DNA from: an uncultured cyanobacterium
GTDB taxonomy: Bacteria; Cyanobacteriota; Cyanobacteriia; PCC-6307; Cyanobiaceae
Length of the DNA: 11,098 nucleotides
Assembly: GCA_903928835.1 (NCBI GenBank)
Contig: CAIYSK010000106.1
Coordinates: 1-11,098, forward strand
Reading direction: 5' to 3'
A program made the translations under genes and the position numbers. The notes beneath the pieces are model-generated. The model did not search any database and was not told the DNA's origin. It worked only from the letters and a program-made list of their open reading frames with translations. Shown here one piece after another: positions 3 through 8,812 of the stretch. Within the stretch, counting starts at the first letter, position 1. Every line of letters begins with the position of its first letter.

Positions 3-710
3 GTTTTATTCAGCATTGGCACGGTCCTCTTCCTGGGGATCCTGATCCTGCTGGTGTACAGCCTGGTGGCCTTCCGCCGCCGCCCGGGCGATGTCAGCGA
101 CGGATTGGCCCTGGAAGGCAACCTGCCCCTTGAAATCGTCTGGACAGCCATACCAGCGGTTGTGGTGTTGTTTGTTGGCCTTTACAGCTACGACATCTAC
201 GAGCGCATGGGTGGCATGGCCCCCATGCATGACCACAGCGCCATGCTGGCCATGGCCTCGGAATCCAGCGGCATTAGCTCGAATGCCGCCACTCCAGCAA
301 AAATCTGGGCGGGCATTGGCGTGGGTGCTGATGCCAGCAGTGGCGCGGCAGCTGCCCTGCCGGTTGATGTGACGGCAATGCAATTTGCCTTCATCTTTCA
401 CTACCCCAACGCCGATATCACCAGCGGCGAGCTGCATGTGCCGGTGGGTCAACCCGTGGAACTCCATATGGAAGCCCGCGATGTGATCCACGCCTTCTGG
501 GTACCCCAGTTCCGGCTCAAGCAAGACGTCATTCCTGGCCAACCCACCGTGCTCTCTTTTACGGCCACGCGGGCCGGCACCTATCCCATTGTCTGCGCGG
601 AGCTGTGCGGCCCCTATCACGGGGGGATGCGCTCCAACGTGGTGGTGCATGAACCCGAGGCCTACGAAAGCTGGCTCGCCAAAAACACCCCAGCCCCTAC
701 CACCACCTAA
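3..710 (+). CDS. ctaC: Cytochrome c oxidase subunit II (CuA subunit), 5'-truncated by the window edge
   Basis: Subunit II of the aa3-type terminal oxidase takes electrons from cytochrome c or plastocyanin-like donors at its CuA centre and passes them to subunit I. The reading frame is open from base 3, so 235 residues are visible and the signal peptide and true start lie upstream. Two membrane helices are visible: one at the very start (about 6-68) and one at about 132-190, with the conserved LEIVWTAIPA entry. The C-terminal cupredoxin domain has a full CuA ligand set: His in VIHAFWVP (489-491), Cys-x3-Cys in CAELC (594-608), His (618-620) and Met (627-629), within CAELCGPYHGGM. After helix 2 comes a Met/His-rich stretch and then an Ala/Ser-rich linker. 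The stop is 7 bases before ctaD. A GTG at 54 lies inside helix 1 and is not a plausible start. Very sure. Confidence 0.96.
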   Translation, partial: VLFSIGTVLFLGILILLVYSLVAFRRRPGDVSDGLALEGNLPLEIVWTAIPAVVVLFVGLYSYDIYERMGGMAPMHDHSAMLAMASESSGISSNAATPAKIWAGIGVGADASSGAAAALPVDVTAMQFAFIFHYPNADITSGELHVPVGQPVELHMEARDVIHAFWVPQFRLKQDVIPGQPTVLSFTATRAGTYPIVCAELCGPYHGGMRSNVVVHEPEAYESWLAKNTPAPTTT

Positions 711-717
711 GAGCCCC

Positions 718-2379
718 ATGACCCTCGCCACCCCATCGGAGCTCGCCCAACCCCTCCCAGGCAATCTCCAGCCCCAGGGCTGGCTGCGCTACTTCAGCTT
801 CAGCCTGGACCACAAGGTGATTGGCATCCAATACCTTGTCTGCGGCTTCATTTTCTATTTGATCGGTGGGGCACTCGCTGGCGTGATTCGCACCGAATTG
901 GCCAGTCCCATGGCCGATTTCGTGAGCCGCGAGACCTACAACGAAGTGCTGACCCTGCACGGGACAGTAATGATTTTCCTGTGGATTGTGCCCGTCGTGA
1001 ATGGGGGATTTGGCAATTATCTGATTCCCTTCTATGTGGGGGCCCGCGACATGGCCTACCCTCGCCTCAATGCCGTGGCCTTTTGGCTGATTCCGCCAGC
1101 CGGCATCTTGCTGATCAGCAGCTATTTCCTAGCTGGTGCTGCCGCCCAATCCGGCTGGACCGCCTATCCCCCCTTGAGCCTCACCACACCAGCCGCTGGC
1201 CAGGTGGTGTGGATTTTGAGCGTGTTACTGCTCGGCGGAAGCTCCATTTTTGGCGGCATCAACTTCATCGCCACCATCCTGAAATTACGGCGGCCAGGGC
1301 TTGGCCTGATGCAAATGCCGATGTACTGCTGGGCCATGCTTGGCACCAGCATCCTGGTGGTGCTCTCAACTCCTGTGCTGGCCGGCACCCTGATCATGTT
1401 GAGCTTCGACATCATTGCCCATACGGGATTTTTCAATCCGGCACTCGGCGGCAATGTGGTGGTCTATCAACACCTTTTTTGGTTCTAGTCCCATCCGGCT
1501 GTTTACATCATGGTGCTACCAGCCTTTGGCCTGGTGAGTGAAATCCTGCCGGTTCATGCCCGCAAGCCCCTGTTTGGGTACGTGACCATGGTGTATTCGA
1601 TCATGGCCATCGTTTTCCTGGGCTTGATTGTGTGGGCCCACCACATGTTTACCAGCGGCACCCCGCCCTGGATGCGCCTGTTCTTCACAATCGCCACCTC
1701 CTTCATTGCCGTGCCAACCGGCATCAAATTCTTCAATTGGCTCGCCACCCTCTGGGGAGGGAAGATCGCCCTCAATTCAGCGATGCTGTTCGCCTGTGCC
1801 TTCATCGTCAACTTCGTGTTTGGCGGCATCACTGGCGTTGCCCTCGCCCAGGTTCCCTTCGACATCCACGTTCACGACACCTACTTTGTGGTGGGCCATT
1901 TCCACTACATCGTCTACGGAGGAACCGTGTTTGTGGTCTTCGCATCCCTCTATCACTGGTATCCAAAATTCACGGGGCGCCTACTTAATGAAGACCTGGG
2001 CAAGCTCCACTTTCTGCTCACTTTCATTGGCTTCAACCTCTGCTTTGCACCCCAACATTGGCTTGGTCTTAATGGCATGCCCAGGCGCGTGGCGGAGTAC
2101 GACCCCAGCTTCACCACCTTGAATCAAGTCAGCAGCGTGGGGGCCCTGTTGATGGCGATTAGCACCGTCCCCCTGTTGATCAACGTGGTTTTGACAGCCT
2201 TCAAGGGGGAGATCGCCGGCGACAACCCCTGGAATGCCCTCACCCCCGAATGGCTCACCTCTTCGCCTCCCCCGGTGGAGAACTGGCTTGGGGAAGCACC
2301 CTTGGTGACAGAGCCCTATGGCTACGGCCACACCCCAGACAACGAGTCCTCGAGCTCATCCGTGAAGCAGGTCGCCTAG
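718..2379 (+). pseudogene. ctaD: Cytochrome c oxidase subunit I, interrupted by one in-frame TAG
   Basis: Subunit I carries heme a and the heme a3-CuB site where O2 is reduced. The ATG at 718 gives 553 codons in one frame, broken only by TAG at codon 257 (1486-1488). Conserved positions on both sides are intact: heme a ligand H81 (LHGT), D111 of the D-channel entrance (DMAYPR), CuB ligands H259 and H308-H309 (WAHHMF), the cross-linked Tyr Y263 (HPAVY), the K-channel Lys (VPTGIK), and GHFHY with the remaining heme ligands. The motif S-H-P-A-V-Y without the helix VI Glu is that of A2-type oxidases, which use a Tyr-Ser pair there; the TAG occupies that Tyr. The upstream part alone would lack the CuB site. 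The second part has an ATG at 1510 without an obvious ribosome binding site. The real terminator (also TAG) is 2 bases before ctaE. It could be a true null allele, a sequencing or assembly error, or read through; family identity is certain. Confidence 0.93.
1486..1488 (+). other. In-frame amber codon at the helix VI Tyr of ctaD
   Basis: The frame reads HLFWF, TAG, SHPAVY. Cyanobacterial subunit I normally has HLFWFYSHPAVY, so TAG stands where a Tyr codon (TAC or TAT) is expected, one base change away. The frame is continuous before and after, so this is a nonsense substitution and not a frameshift. TAG is used as an ordinary terminator by at least five other genes or gene ends here (2377-2379, 6619-6621, and on the - strand 6634-6636, 7679-7681, 8819-8821). 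A general reassignment of TAG is therefore not supported. Confidence 0.95.
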
Positions 2380-2381
2380 TC

Positions 2382-3032
2382 ATGACAAGCCTCTCCAATC
2401 TCGCCGATAGCGACCTCACCAACAACAACCCCCATCCAAAAGACGCTGCCCAAAGCGAACTCGCCCCCGAGGGCCAAGGGGTCCACGAGGTTCATGGTGA
2501 CTTCCGCCTATTTGGCCTTGCCACTTTCCTGGTGGCCGATGGCATGACCTTCGCCGGGTTCTTTGCCGCCTACCTCACCTTTCGGGCCGTTAATCCCCTG
2601 CCCGAGGGCAGCAGCTACGAGCTGGAGCTGCTGCTACCCACGATCAACACAGTGATTCTCGTTGTCAGTTCGCTCACCTTTCACCAGGCAGGCAAAGCGT
2701 GCCGGGCCAACCAGCTCGCCAAGGCCCGCACCTGGCTGATGGTGACCGGCGGCCTGGGAGTGGCCTTTTTGGCCAGTCAAATGGTGGAGTACTTCTCGCT
2801 TCCTTTTGGACTAACCGACAACCTTTTTGCGAGCACCTTTTATGCCCTCACCGGTTTTCACGGGCTCCACGTAACCCTGGGGGTAATTTGCATTGCGATC
2901 GTAACCCTGCAAACCCGCTCAAACGGACGCATCACCGCCAAGGATCATTTTGGCCTTGAGGCGGCTGAACTTTATTGGCATTTCGTAGACGGCATCTGGG
3001 TTGTGCTCTATGGAATTCTTTATCTGCTTTGA
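2382..3032 (+). CDS. ctaE: Cytochrome c oxidase subunit III
   Basis: Subunit III is the metal-free membrane subunit that stabilises subunit I and supports proton uptake in aa3 oxidases. The product is 216 residues, the short five-helix bacterial form. After a polar 38-residue N-terminus come FRLFGLATFLVADGMTFAGF (helix 1, with Asp where many homologues have Glu), TFHQAGKACR, a helix at LMVTGGLGVAFLASQMVEY, FYALTGFHGLHVTLG (the conserved G-F-H-G-x-H-V signature), and the closing ELYWHFVDGIWVVLYGILYL, which is diagnostic of COX3. The ATG at 2382 was chosen because it follows the ctaD stop by 2 bases; the frame opens further upstream inside ctaD without family similarity. The tight spacing suggests translational coupling to ctaD, so the nonsense codon there may reduce its expression. 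Confidence 0.96.
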   Translation: MTSLSNLADSDLTNNNPHPKDAAQSELAPEGQGVHEVHGDFRLFGLATFLVADGMTFAGFFAAYLTFRAVNPLPEGSSYELELLLPTINTVILVVSSLTFHQAGKACRANQLAKARTWLMVTGGLGVAFLASQMVEYFSLPFGLTDNLFASTFYALTGFHGLHVTLGVICIAIVTLQTRSNGRITAKDHFGLEAAELYWHFVDGIWVVLYGILYLL

Positions 3033-3103: not shown

Positions 3104-3484
3104 ATGCTCGAAGGCCAGGCTCTACTCGATCGCGCCCGCTCGCTCAGCAACCGGCCGGAAGATCAAATTGCCCGCGCCTGCGGGTATGTCGGCCCGAGTG
3201 GCCGGGTGTTGAAAAAAAGTTTTTACAAGGCCCTAGTGGCTGCCAAGGGTTATTGCCTTCCCTCCAGTTCTTCTGGCAGCGGCGGGCCAAAAGGTCGGCA
3301 AGCTGATTTCCGCACCCGGGTCCATGGCAATGGCAACCTGCTGATTGGCCACGCCTACACCAAGCGCATGGGCCTCGAGCCTGGGATGGAATTCAAAATT
3401 GAACTCCATCAGGAAACCGGCTCGATTTGGTTGATGCCCTTAGACAACTGCTCCGCCGCAGACAATGGCGCAGCCGAAGGCTGA
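3104..3484 (+). CDS. cyAbrB-type transcriptional regulator (cyanobacterial AbrB-like)
   Basis: This 126-residue protein matches the cyanobacterial AbrB-like family, small DNA-binding regulators linked in other cyanobacteria to carbon/nitrogen balance and redox genes. The N-terminal half has the family pattern L-x-G-x-x-LL (2-8), ARACGYV (24-29) and FYKALVAAKGY (40-50). The C-terminal AbrB-like half runs FRTRVHGNGNLLIGHAYTKRMGLEPGMEFKIEL (about 69-101). A Ser/Gly-rich linker (54-66) separates them, and the last 12 residues are non-conserved. It starts 71 bases after ctaE on the same strand and could be co-transcribed with the oxidase. GGAG lies only 2 bases before the ATG, closer than usual, but no better start fits the family. 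It converges on the HdeD-like gene with 4 bases between. Targets cannot be read from sequence. Family assignment is good. Confidence 0.85.
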   Translation: MLEGQALLDRARSLSNRPEDQIARACGYVGPSGRVLKKSFYKALVAAKGYCLPSSSSGSGGPKGRQADFRTRVHGNGNLLIGHAYTKRMGLEPGMEFKIELHQETGSIWLMPLDNCSAADNGAAEG

Positions 3485-6633: not shown

Positions 6634-7668
6634 CTAGGGAGCTGCGGCATCCCAAAGGGTTTGCAGCGCCAGCCGCGCCTCGGGGGCGAATGGGGGCAAG
6701 CTCCAGCAGCGCTCGAGCACCCCATCGCTGGGCAGCAGCAACTGGGCCACAGGCTCGGGGAAGCCCCGCAGCACTGGCTCGATCACCGCGCGCGGCAGGG
6801 GCGGCACCCAGCCTTTGAGCAGCAGGCCTTCCAGCAGGGATCGGTCCCAGAGCTTCTGGATCCAGGCCGCCGGTAGGGGTGCCCCTGATCCGGCTGAGGA
6901 TCCAGCGACTGATCCGCTCACCCCAGGCGCTGGCTGCAACAACAGTTGCCAGGTAAGCGGTGCTCCAGTGGCGGGAAGCACCACCTGGAGGCGCTGATCC
7001 CTTCGCAACAGGGGGATGACCCGCTGCAACGGGGTGACCAGGGCCTGGGCTTCACCACTGAGCAAAAGGTTTAAACCATCCCGTTCGTCGTAGGCAAGGG
7101 CCTGGCGCCGCAGGGCCATCAGGGGCTCGAGGCCATTGCCCAGCAGGGCCATCGCCACCCGCGGGCTCGAGGGCAGCACCAGCTGGCCCTTGAGGCTGGG
7201 ATCCAGCAGAAGCTCCCATCCCTCCGCCCGCCGCTGGGCCAGGTCGGGACGGTTGCGCAACACCAAAACCCAGGGCGAAAAGGCCCAGGGAAACGCCAAG
7301 GCCGGCGAACCCTCGGGCGCAAATAACCGGCTCACCGGCCCGGCCCAGGGCGCCAGTCGTCGCAGCTCAGCTTCCACACCAATCGGCTGGAGGTGCTGGC
7401 GGGGCAGGGCAGAAGCCCAGCCATCGGAGAGGGCCCAGAGCGCCGCCTTGCTGCGGGCGACGGCCTCGGGATCGCCCAACCAGCTGGCCTGCCAGCCCGC
7501 TGGCAGTTGCTGGCTCCAGGCCTGGGGGAACTGGCCCTCCACCGCCGCCAAGAGCTGGTTCTTATCCCGATTACAACCTGCCAGAAGCCCAGGCGCCGCC
7601 ACCGCGGCCCCGGAGATCAGGCCAAGCCGCAGCAACTGACGGCGGGAGAGCGCTTCACCAAAACCCAT
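6634..7668 (-). CDS. Tat-signal lipoprotein, solute-binding protein of polyamine-binding (PotD-like) type
   Basis: The 344-residue product starts with a twin-arginine signal (SRRQLLR, residues 8-14), a hydrophobic stretch, and a lipobox LLAGC with Cys32. It is therefore likely exported folded and lipid-anchored outside the cytoplasmic membrane. The rest resembles extracellular solute-binding proteins of the spermidine/putrescine class: FPWAFSPWVLVLRNRPDLAQ, WELLLDPSLKGQLVLPSSPR (the W-x-x-L-x-D-P-x-L-K-G signature), LNLLLSGEAQALVTPLQ, and the C-terminal WVPPLPRAVIEPVLRGFPE. A Gly/Ser-rich low-complexity insertion (GSVAGSSAGSG) interrupts the second lobe. No permease or ATPase gene is present here, so the ligand and partner transporter are unknown. 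The ATG at 7668 was chosen because it directly precedes the Tat motif; the frame runs upstream into the CobT-like gene, from whose stop it is separated by 10 bases. Confidence 0.8.
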   Translation of the reverse strand: MGFGEALSRRQLLRLGLISGAAVAAPGLLAGCNRDKNQLLAAVEGQFPQAWSQQLPAGWQASWLGDPEAVARSKAALWALSDGWASALPRQHLQPIGVEAELRRLAPWAGPVSRLFAPEGSPALAFPWAFSPWVLVLRNRPDLAQRRAEGWELLLDPSLKGQLVLPSSPRVAMALLGNGLEPLMALRRQALAYDERDGLNLLLSGEAQALVTPLQRVIPLLRRDQRLQVVLPATGAPLTWQLLLQPAPGVSGSVAGSSAGSGAPLPAAWIQKLWDRSLLEGLLLKGWVPPLPRAVIEPVLRGFPEPVAQLLLPSDGVLERCWSLPPFAPEARLALQTLWDAAAP

Positions 7669-7678
7669 GGGCCCGACC

Positions 7679-8812
7679 CTAGGCTCCGAGCCACTGCGAA
7701 CACAGGGCGTCGCAGGCGGAAGCCAGCGCCTGGGGGGAGTGGCCGCAGCGCTCCCAAAGCAGCGCCAATCCGCCCGCCCCCACACCCTCCTTCACGTAAC
7801 CCCGTTCGTAATCCCGCAGGGCCTGACTGCGGCAATCGGAAAAGCGCAGGCCGGCCACCTGGGGCACAAGGGGCTGCTCGAGCCCCCAGCGCCCGGCAAT
7901 CCGCTCCAGCAGCAGGGCAAGATTGCTGCCCCTGTCTTGGGCCACCCAAGCGGTGGTTGCCACCTGCACCAGGTCCAACAGCGCCGGCCGCCCCTGGGCA
8001 GGGGCGATCGCCAGGGCCAACGCCAACACCGCCGCCATCTGACTTCCCCCGGCCAAGAGCACCGGTACCCCCTGGGCCGCAGCCCCGAGCACCAAGCCCG
8101 CCGCCAGGGGCTGCATCGGGTCCCCCACCGCAGCAACCACAGCCAAGGGATCCCAGGCTGGATTCGTGCTCTGCCCCCGCTTTGGGTTCACCCTGGCAAG
8201 CCCCTGGTCAACCAGGGCCGCCTTCAGCCCATGGGCAGGATGGCGCAGGCTGCCGCTCACCAAGCCCTGGGCCCTAACGCCCAAGCCTTCGAGAACAGCC
8301 AGGGCCGTGGTGGTGCCGCCCGGCACGCATTCCGCCACCACCAACGGACTCGGCGACAAGCCTCCAGCACCAGCAGGCCTTCCCAACCGTTCTCCCCAGC
8401 GCAGGCCCCGGGCCAGCAGCGCCTGCACCCGCCCTAGGTCCATGGCGATCCCACTGCTCAAGCAGCGTGCTGGAGCGCTGCCCTCCAGGGCAGGCAGGCG
8501 CAGGTGGGGGATGGCCGGCGCCACCGGGCAACCCAGATCCACCACCTGGGTGTGGGCCAACAGGCCCAAATCCCTTAGCACAACATGGCTGATCAAGGCC
8601 GGAGTCACCCCCGCCGGCAGGGGCGGCAGGCCATGGGCCCGCTGAGCCAAGGGGCCCAAAAGCAGGAGCTCCGCATCGGCAGCGGCGGTTTGACGGCGGG
8701 ATAGGGGGCTAGCGCCAGCTGCAGAGATGCCCTCCACCGACGCCGTTTCGGTGGCAGCGAGCAGCAGCAGGATGCGGCTCGTCGGCCAGGGAGGGGAGCC
8801 TGGAGCCTGCAT
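7679..8812 (-). CDS. CobT-like nicotinate-nucleotide phosphoribosyltransferase homologue (TIGR00303/UPF0284 type)
   Basis: The 377-residue protein resembles the archaeal/cyanobacterial branch related to CobT, the enzyme that activates the lower base of cobamides with nicotinate mononucleotide. Visible family features are an N-terminal LLLAATETASVEGISAAG, VVDLGCPVAPAIPHLRL (90-106), the LVVAECVPGGTTTALAVLEGLG segment (157-178) with the phosphate-binding-like PGGTTTA, HPAHGLKAALVDQGL (191-205), DPLAVVAAVGDPMQPLAAGLVLGA (221-244), GVPVLLAGGSQMAAVLALA (248-266), and RGYVKEGVGAGG (337-348). Marine picocyanobacteria make pseudocobalamin with adenine as lower base, so the true substrate here is uncertain. 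It starts 6 bases after the DUF2232 gene and ends 10 bases before the Tat lipoprotein gene, consistent with one operon. It ends in TAG. The family is recognised from motifs only; enzymatic role is inference. Confidence 0.8.
   Translation of the reverse strand: MQAPGSPPWPTSRILLLLAATETASVEGISAAGASPLSRRQTAAADAELLLLGPLAQRAHGLPPLPAGVTPALISHVVLRDLGLLAHTQVVDLGCPVAPAIPHLRLPALEGSAPARCLSSGIAMDLGRVQALLARGLRWGERLGRPAGAGGLSPSPLVVAECVPGGTTTALAVLEGLGVRAQGLVSGSLRHPAHGLKAALVDQGLARVNPKRGQSTNPAWDPLAVVAAVGDPMQPLAAGLVLGAAAQGVPVLLAGGSQMAAVLALALAIAPAQGRPALLDLVQVATTAWVAQDRGSNLALLLERIAGRWGLEQPLVPQVAGLRFSDCRSQALRDYERGYVKEGVGAGGLALLWERCGHSPQALASACDALCSQWLGA

Follow-up and report, generated by a model that had tools for sequence, protein, structure and literature searches.

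A TAG codon at the helix VI tyrosine of ctaD in a draft picocyanobacterial genome, with consensus error as the favoured explanation

The ctaD gene analysed here, which encodes subunit I of cytochrome c oxidase, is interrupted in frame by a single TAG where its relatives carry a tyrosine, and the question that it raises is whether this stop belongs to the cell or to the record. A first-pass annotation had proposed, in decreasing order of likelihood, a sequencing or assembly error, a recent nonsense mutation or strain variant, and readthrough or suppression; this order was kept after the tests described below. We favour, with moderate confidence, the first of these, that is, a consensus error (of sequencing or assembly) in a draft of low continuity, with the wrong base in the record and not in the cell.

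The window, by which we mean the whole stretch of 11,098 nucleotides, corresponds to positions 1-11098 of contig C106 of a draft genome that totals 1,929,092 bases over 421 contigs, with a completeness of 86% and a contamination of 3%. Among the best 80 of 594 stretches, the named relative nearest in sequence is Synechococcus sp. 8F6 (L031), with 92% amino acid identity over codons 1-541, which places the organism among the picocyanobacteria. We infer that it comes from a freshwater habitat.

The ctaD gene and its interrupted frame

Matches to COX1, COX2 and COX3 were found once each in the whole assembly, all of them inside the window (Table 1), and a gap of only two bases separates the terminal stop of ctaD from the ATG of ctaE. 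An AbrB-like regulator gene lies immediately 3' of ctaE.

Table 1. Features of the window, with positions counted from its first base
Feature	Position	Strand	Remarks
ctaC, subunit II	3..710	+	PF00116, PF02790; truncated 5' at the contig end; rest of the frame open
ctaD, cytochrome c oxidase subunit I	718..2379	+	PF00115; one internal stop; terminal stop also TAG
N-terminal part of ctaD before the stop	718..1485	+	256 codons; without the CuB/heme a3 part
In-frame TAG, ctaD codon 257	1486..1488	+	Tyr in 15/15 other same-genus genomes
Longest ATG/GTG/TTG frame past the stop	1510..2379	+	289 aa, begins at codon 265
ctaE, subunit III	2382..3032	+	PF00510; open; start chosen by the analyst
AbrB-like regulator gene	3104..3484	+	PF14250
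Open reading frame	6634..7785	-	383 aa; lipoprotein-like N-terminus (LLAGC)

The ctaD gene runs from the ATG at 718-720 to the TAG at 2377-2379 and has 554 codons counting the terminal stop. When the internal TAG is read as X, a single open frame of 553 residues is obtained, which matches positions 2-436 of the 436 of PF00115 with 529 bits. Around codon 257 the translation reads QHLFWF, stop, SHPAVYIMV, and the frame is open on either side. The claim of the first-pass annotation that a TAG breaks an otherwise in-frame gene of 553 codons is therefore confirmed, both flanks being in frame and the PF00115 match being full length. Moreover, with a clear synonymous-substitution signature on each side, the nonsense codon goes beyond chance frame noise. 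The TAG differs from the helix VI Tyr codon by one base, the third. A random base change would yield as much: of the 4,968 single substitutions that the other 552 codons of ctaD can undergo, 146 also create stops, 44 of them at Tyr codons.

Residues His81, His259, His308, His309, His394, His396 and Lys337 are each matched by an identical residue in three solved COX1 chains, so the earlier statement that the metal ligands are conserved holds in all three alignments. We take His81 to be the low-spin heme histidine, His259 a CuB ligand and Tyr263 the cross-linked tyrosine. With the exception of His81, all the aligned His ligands and the K-channel Lys337 fall 3' of the stop.

The gene resembles A2-type subunit I (cyanobacterial ctaD/coxA) in its full-length PF00115 match, in the ctaC-ctaD-ctaE order and in the SHPAVY motif of helix VI, and its closest matches are cyanobacterial ctaD genes; it differs in the literal TAG standing where the Tyr of YSHPAVY belongs. 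Of the A2 signature YS-HPxV, the record keeps SHPAV and has the TAG in place of the tyrosine. The assignment of ctaD to this family rests on its relatives, the predicted product as written being truncated. Passages of PMC3084760 state that a tyrosine takes the place of the D-channel glutamate in A2 enzymes and that A2 is the only form of the A type in cyanobacteria; a cross-linked Tyr of helix VI is also described in them. The first-pass reading of an A2-type enzyme, with Tyr instead of the D-channel Glu, agrees with these passages.

Codon 257 among relatives and the age of the change

Codon 257 could be aligned in 110 loci, that is, the copy under study and 109 others, partly drawn from the best 80 of 594 stretches. 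The 109 other loci showed Tyr in 90 cases, Phe in 19 and a stop in none, although the 110 loci are not all independent organisms, as some named and other records may be the same genomes. The Phe was found in FGHPEVY-type oxidases in 19 out of 19 cases. The genus comparison comprised 16 genomes including the source genome, and all the 15 others have Tyr at this codon. Among them, the three nearest (G008, G002 and G009, with 93-94% DNA identity) have an intact ctaD. The tyrosine that the first-pass annotation expected, and proposed to look for in the ctaD of close relatives, was thus borne out by both comparisons. The occurrence of Tyr or Phe in relatives, together with the A2 tyrosine that replaces the D-channel glutamate according to passages of PMC3084760, indicates that the site is functionally important.

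A search by protein sequence for this species in further metagenomes (90% clusters; 8,000 candidates scored) gave no match above 88% identity among the 120 listed of 7,943. Among the papers listed for cyanobacterial oxidases, for nonsense ctaD in cyanobacteria and for premature stops in metagenome-assembled genomes, none was on point.

The family alignment consisted of 32 sequences over codons 1-540 (gap-free columns), with 351 invariant amino acid columns. At otherwise invariant columns, the source genome carries one private change, which is the stop. As for the other 31 sequences, 20 have no such change and 11 have 1-16; L014 and L016 together account for 24 of these 38 changes. When only the four closest sequences are compared, the source genome has 50 private nucleotides and the other three 25-32; the stop-making change is the single T>G among these 50.

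In codons 258-540, the private changes number 16 synonymous and 3 nonsynonymous, against the ~51 nonsynonymous ones expected without selection, given 3.19 nonsynonymous opportunities per synonymous one. Three changes where ~51 were expected means that no decay took place; the half after the stop is still under strong purifying selection. A long-standing pseudogene was rejected, as no relaxed selection was seen in codons 258-540; the same counts uphold the earlier argument, drawn from the intact flanks, against an old pseudogene. Judging from this pattern, the stop is either very recent or absent from the cell. Any neutral drift since the stop covers at most ~15% of the source branch (Poisson upper limit).

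Use of TAG, quality of the draft and other oxidases

TAG is a working stop in the source genome. Among 96 sampled ORFs that have a coding-like counterpart in G002, 33 end in TAG (the two ctaD pieces included), 44 in TGA and 19 in TAA, and release factor RF1 (prfA) is present and uninterrupted (472 bits). A genome-wide reassignment of amber was rejected in view of this regular use of TAG at gene ends and of the presence of RF1. Pyrrolysine finds no support either, PylS having no match in the 86% complete genome. The search for amber-suppressor tRNAs that the first-pass annotation had suggested returned none: among the 25 tRNA genes found by ARAGORN, an incomplete set in an 86% complete genome, no CTA anticodon was present. 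The tRNA-Tyr is also missing from these 25, which are fewer than a full set, so that a suppressor tRNA could be missing from the list. The CCT anticodon occurs in two tRNA-Arg genes (L113 and L114, on contigs C15 and C360) of this draft, whose estimated contamination is 3%. The 100 bases that begin at the stop showed no better folding than shuffled sequences (z = -0.34), which gives no sign of a readthrough-like structure 3' of the codon. On this evidence, recoding is not supported.

The quality of the consensus was assessed on contigs C1-C40 of the 421 plus the window, a sample of 183,047 bases (~9% of the genome) picked by contig number except for the window, and compared against 1,524,688 bases of G002. 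Alignments were taken as coding-like when the third-position share of differences exceeded 0.5, and those at or below 0.5 were excluded as probable wrong-frame ORFs. The 383-aa ORF of the window had no Pfam match at E 0.001, yet it had a coding-like match in G002. When ORFs of G002 were compared with the source genome, 124 alignments were obtained, of which 95 were coding-like (30,593 codons). Nine stops were found in these 95: that of ctaD, one 23 residues ahead of a C-terminus, and seven in the N-terminal 67 residues of ORFs that had been called from the farthest start. The stop at residue 67 of 289 precedes a transaldolase domain (76-284) and therefore probably lies before the real start. 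A threshold case that was left out has a TAG at residue 47 of 170, upstream of a Cpn10 domain (78-169). The reverse comparison gave 97 alignments, 30,953 codons and seven stops in G002, all in the first 48 or last 5 residues. Four gene pairs aligned as two pieces; three of them were read as upstream out-of-frame extensions ahead of real starts, and in the fourth (L279_13260 against L190) the piece with the stop was not coding-like.

Besides that of ctaD, no further clear mid-gene stop was found in ~30,000 sampled codons. An error-ridden assembly was rejected on this sample, in which ctaD holds the only clear mid-gene nonsense codon, but zero in ~30,000 codons still permits ~60 such errors genome-wide (95% limit).

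As for other terminal oxidases, the 16 genomes of the genus, source included, gave no match to cytochrome bd subunit I, and the 86% complete source assembly contained no second COX1. A second COX1 is present in G002 and G008, and in G009 as two pieces. The region that holds it in G002 (L275:12536-15732) has no counterpart in the source assembly, where matches restart at the first base of contig C66 (G000:C66); about 10 kb of the G002 query is unmatched except for the second COX1 cross-matching ctaD (40 of 71 candidates scored). A second copy in the source organism may thus fall into a gap of the assembly or not exist.

Broken COX1 records were found in 2 of the 40 comparison genomes besides the source, namely G030 and G009. 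In G030, one COX1 (L024, G030:C29:102861-104189) is frameshifted over a local stretch and contains a TGA, and another (G030:C16:200605-201946) appears as two overlapping pieces with a TGA; in G009, the second COX1 (G009:C98:4013-5352) appears as two adjacent pieces in different frames. These could be errors or real damage alike. The frame changes in the records of G030 and G009, whereas in the source ctaD just one codon differs in kind.

Origin of the stop and its meaning

Several lines of evidence lead us to favour an error of the consensus. The sequence shows an isolated TAG, private to this genome, in a gene that is undamaged elsewhere and stays under constraint, and TAG serves here as a normal stop. 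Consensus errors, or single-base nonsense differences, in drafts are likewise isolated and private, with the gene otherwise undamaged. The lack of a stop in the other scored loci, the constant Tyr of the same-genus genomes and the private T>G argue for an error, as do the lack of decay after the stop and the open frames of ctaC (except for its cut 5' end) and ctaE. The draft itself, fragmented and incomplete, and the broken COX1 records of two other drafts point in the same direction. If so, the cell would have Tyr at codon 257 like its relatives, and its ctaC-ctaD-ctaE operon would encode an A2-type aa3 cytochrome c oxidase of the ordinary kind. Against an error stands the fact that the rest of the sampled assembly is clean, and the damage in G009 and G030 could be real.

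A real nonsense mutation of very recent origin, which has become fixed or frequent in the strain or population that was sampled and abolishes the aa3 oxidase, is a serious contender, to which we give somewhat less than an even chance. Under it, the ribosome would halt after codon 256, the product would lack the CuB/heme a3 site, and the cells would depend on another oxidase or on light. Some weight for a real allele comes from the clean sample, which indicates that the consensus is generally good. Additionally, the ratio of 3 to 16 private changes still allows an origin of the stop within about the last 15% of the branch, and a second COX1 like that of G002 and G008 (the G009 copy being in two pieces) could compensate for the loss. 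These points have to be set against the strong purifying selection on ctaD in the source lineage, the absence of a stop from every other scored locus, and the lack of both cytochrome bd subunit I and a second COX1, which would make the loss costly unless a second COX1 lies in the assembly gap. We find it very improbable that the amber is decoded as an amino acid by readthrough or suppression, giving a full-length subunit I. The downstream half is conserved as though still translated and the short tRNA list could miss a suppressor, but a recent change or an error accounts equally well for the conserved half, no CTA-anticodon tRNA or PylS was matched, RF1 is intact, the folding of the 100 bases is unremarkable, and TAG terminates ctaD itself and about a third of the sampled ORFs. 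Less probable still, in our estimate, would be a real amber at which a low, perhaps regulated, readthrough by an unrecovered suppressor tRNA sets the level of the aa3 oxidase. Least credible of all is a split oxidase, in which termination at 1486 would be followed by re-initiation at the ATG at 1510 to yield two assembling polypeptides. This ATG lies 21 bases past the stop and opens 289 codons, but the second piece starts past His259 and Tyr263 of SHPAVY, so that neither fragment holds a complete active site, and a stop at codon 257 is again missing from the 109 other loci; a split enzyme was rejected on account of where the second piece begins.

If the TAG is a consensus error, as we favour, a lone disabled codon in one draft genome is no evidence of gene loss, and under either this or a real nonsense allele no new mechanism is required. 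If the stop is real, a natural picocyanobacterial population would have lost the terminal oxidase that is its main, and possibly its only, means of reducing oxygen, and this would have a bearing on how much these cells depend on dark respiration.
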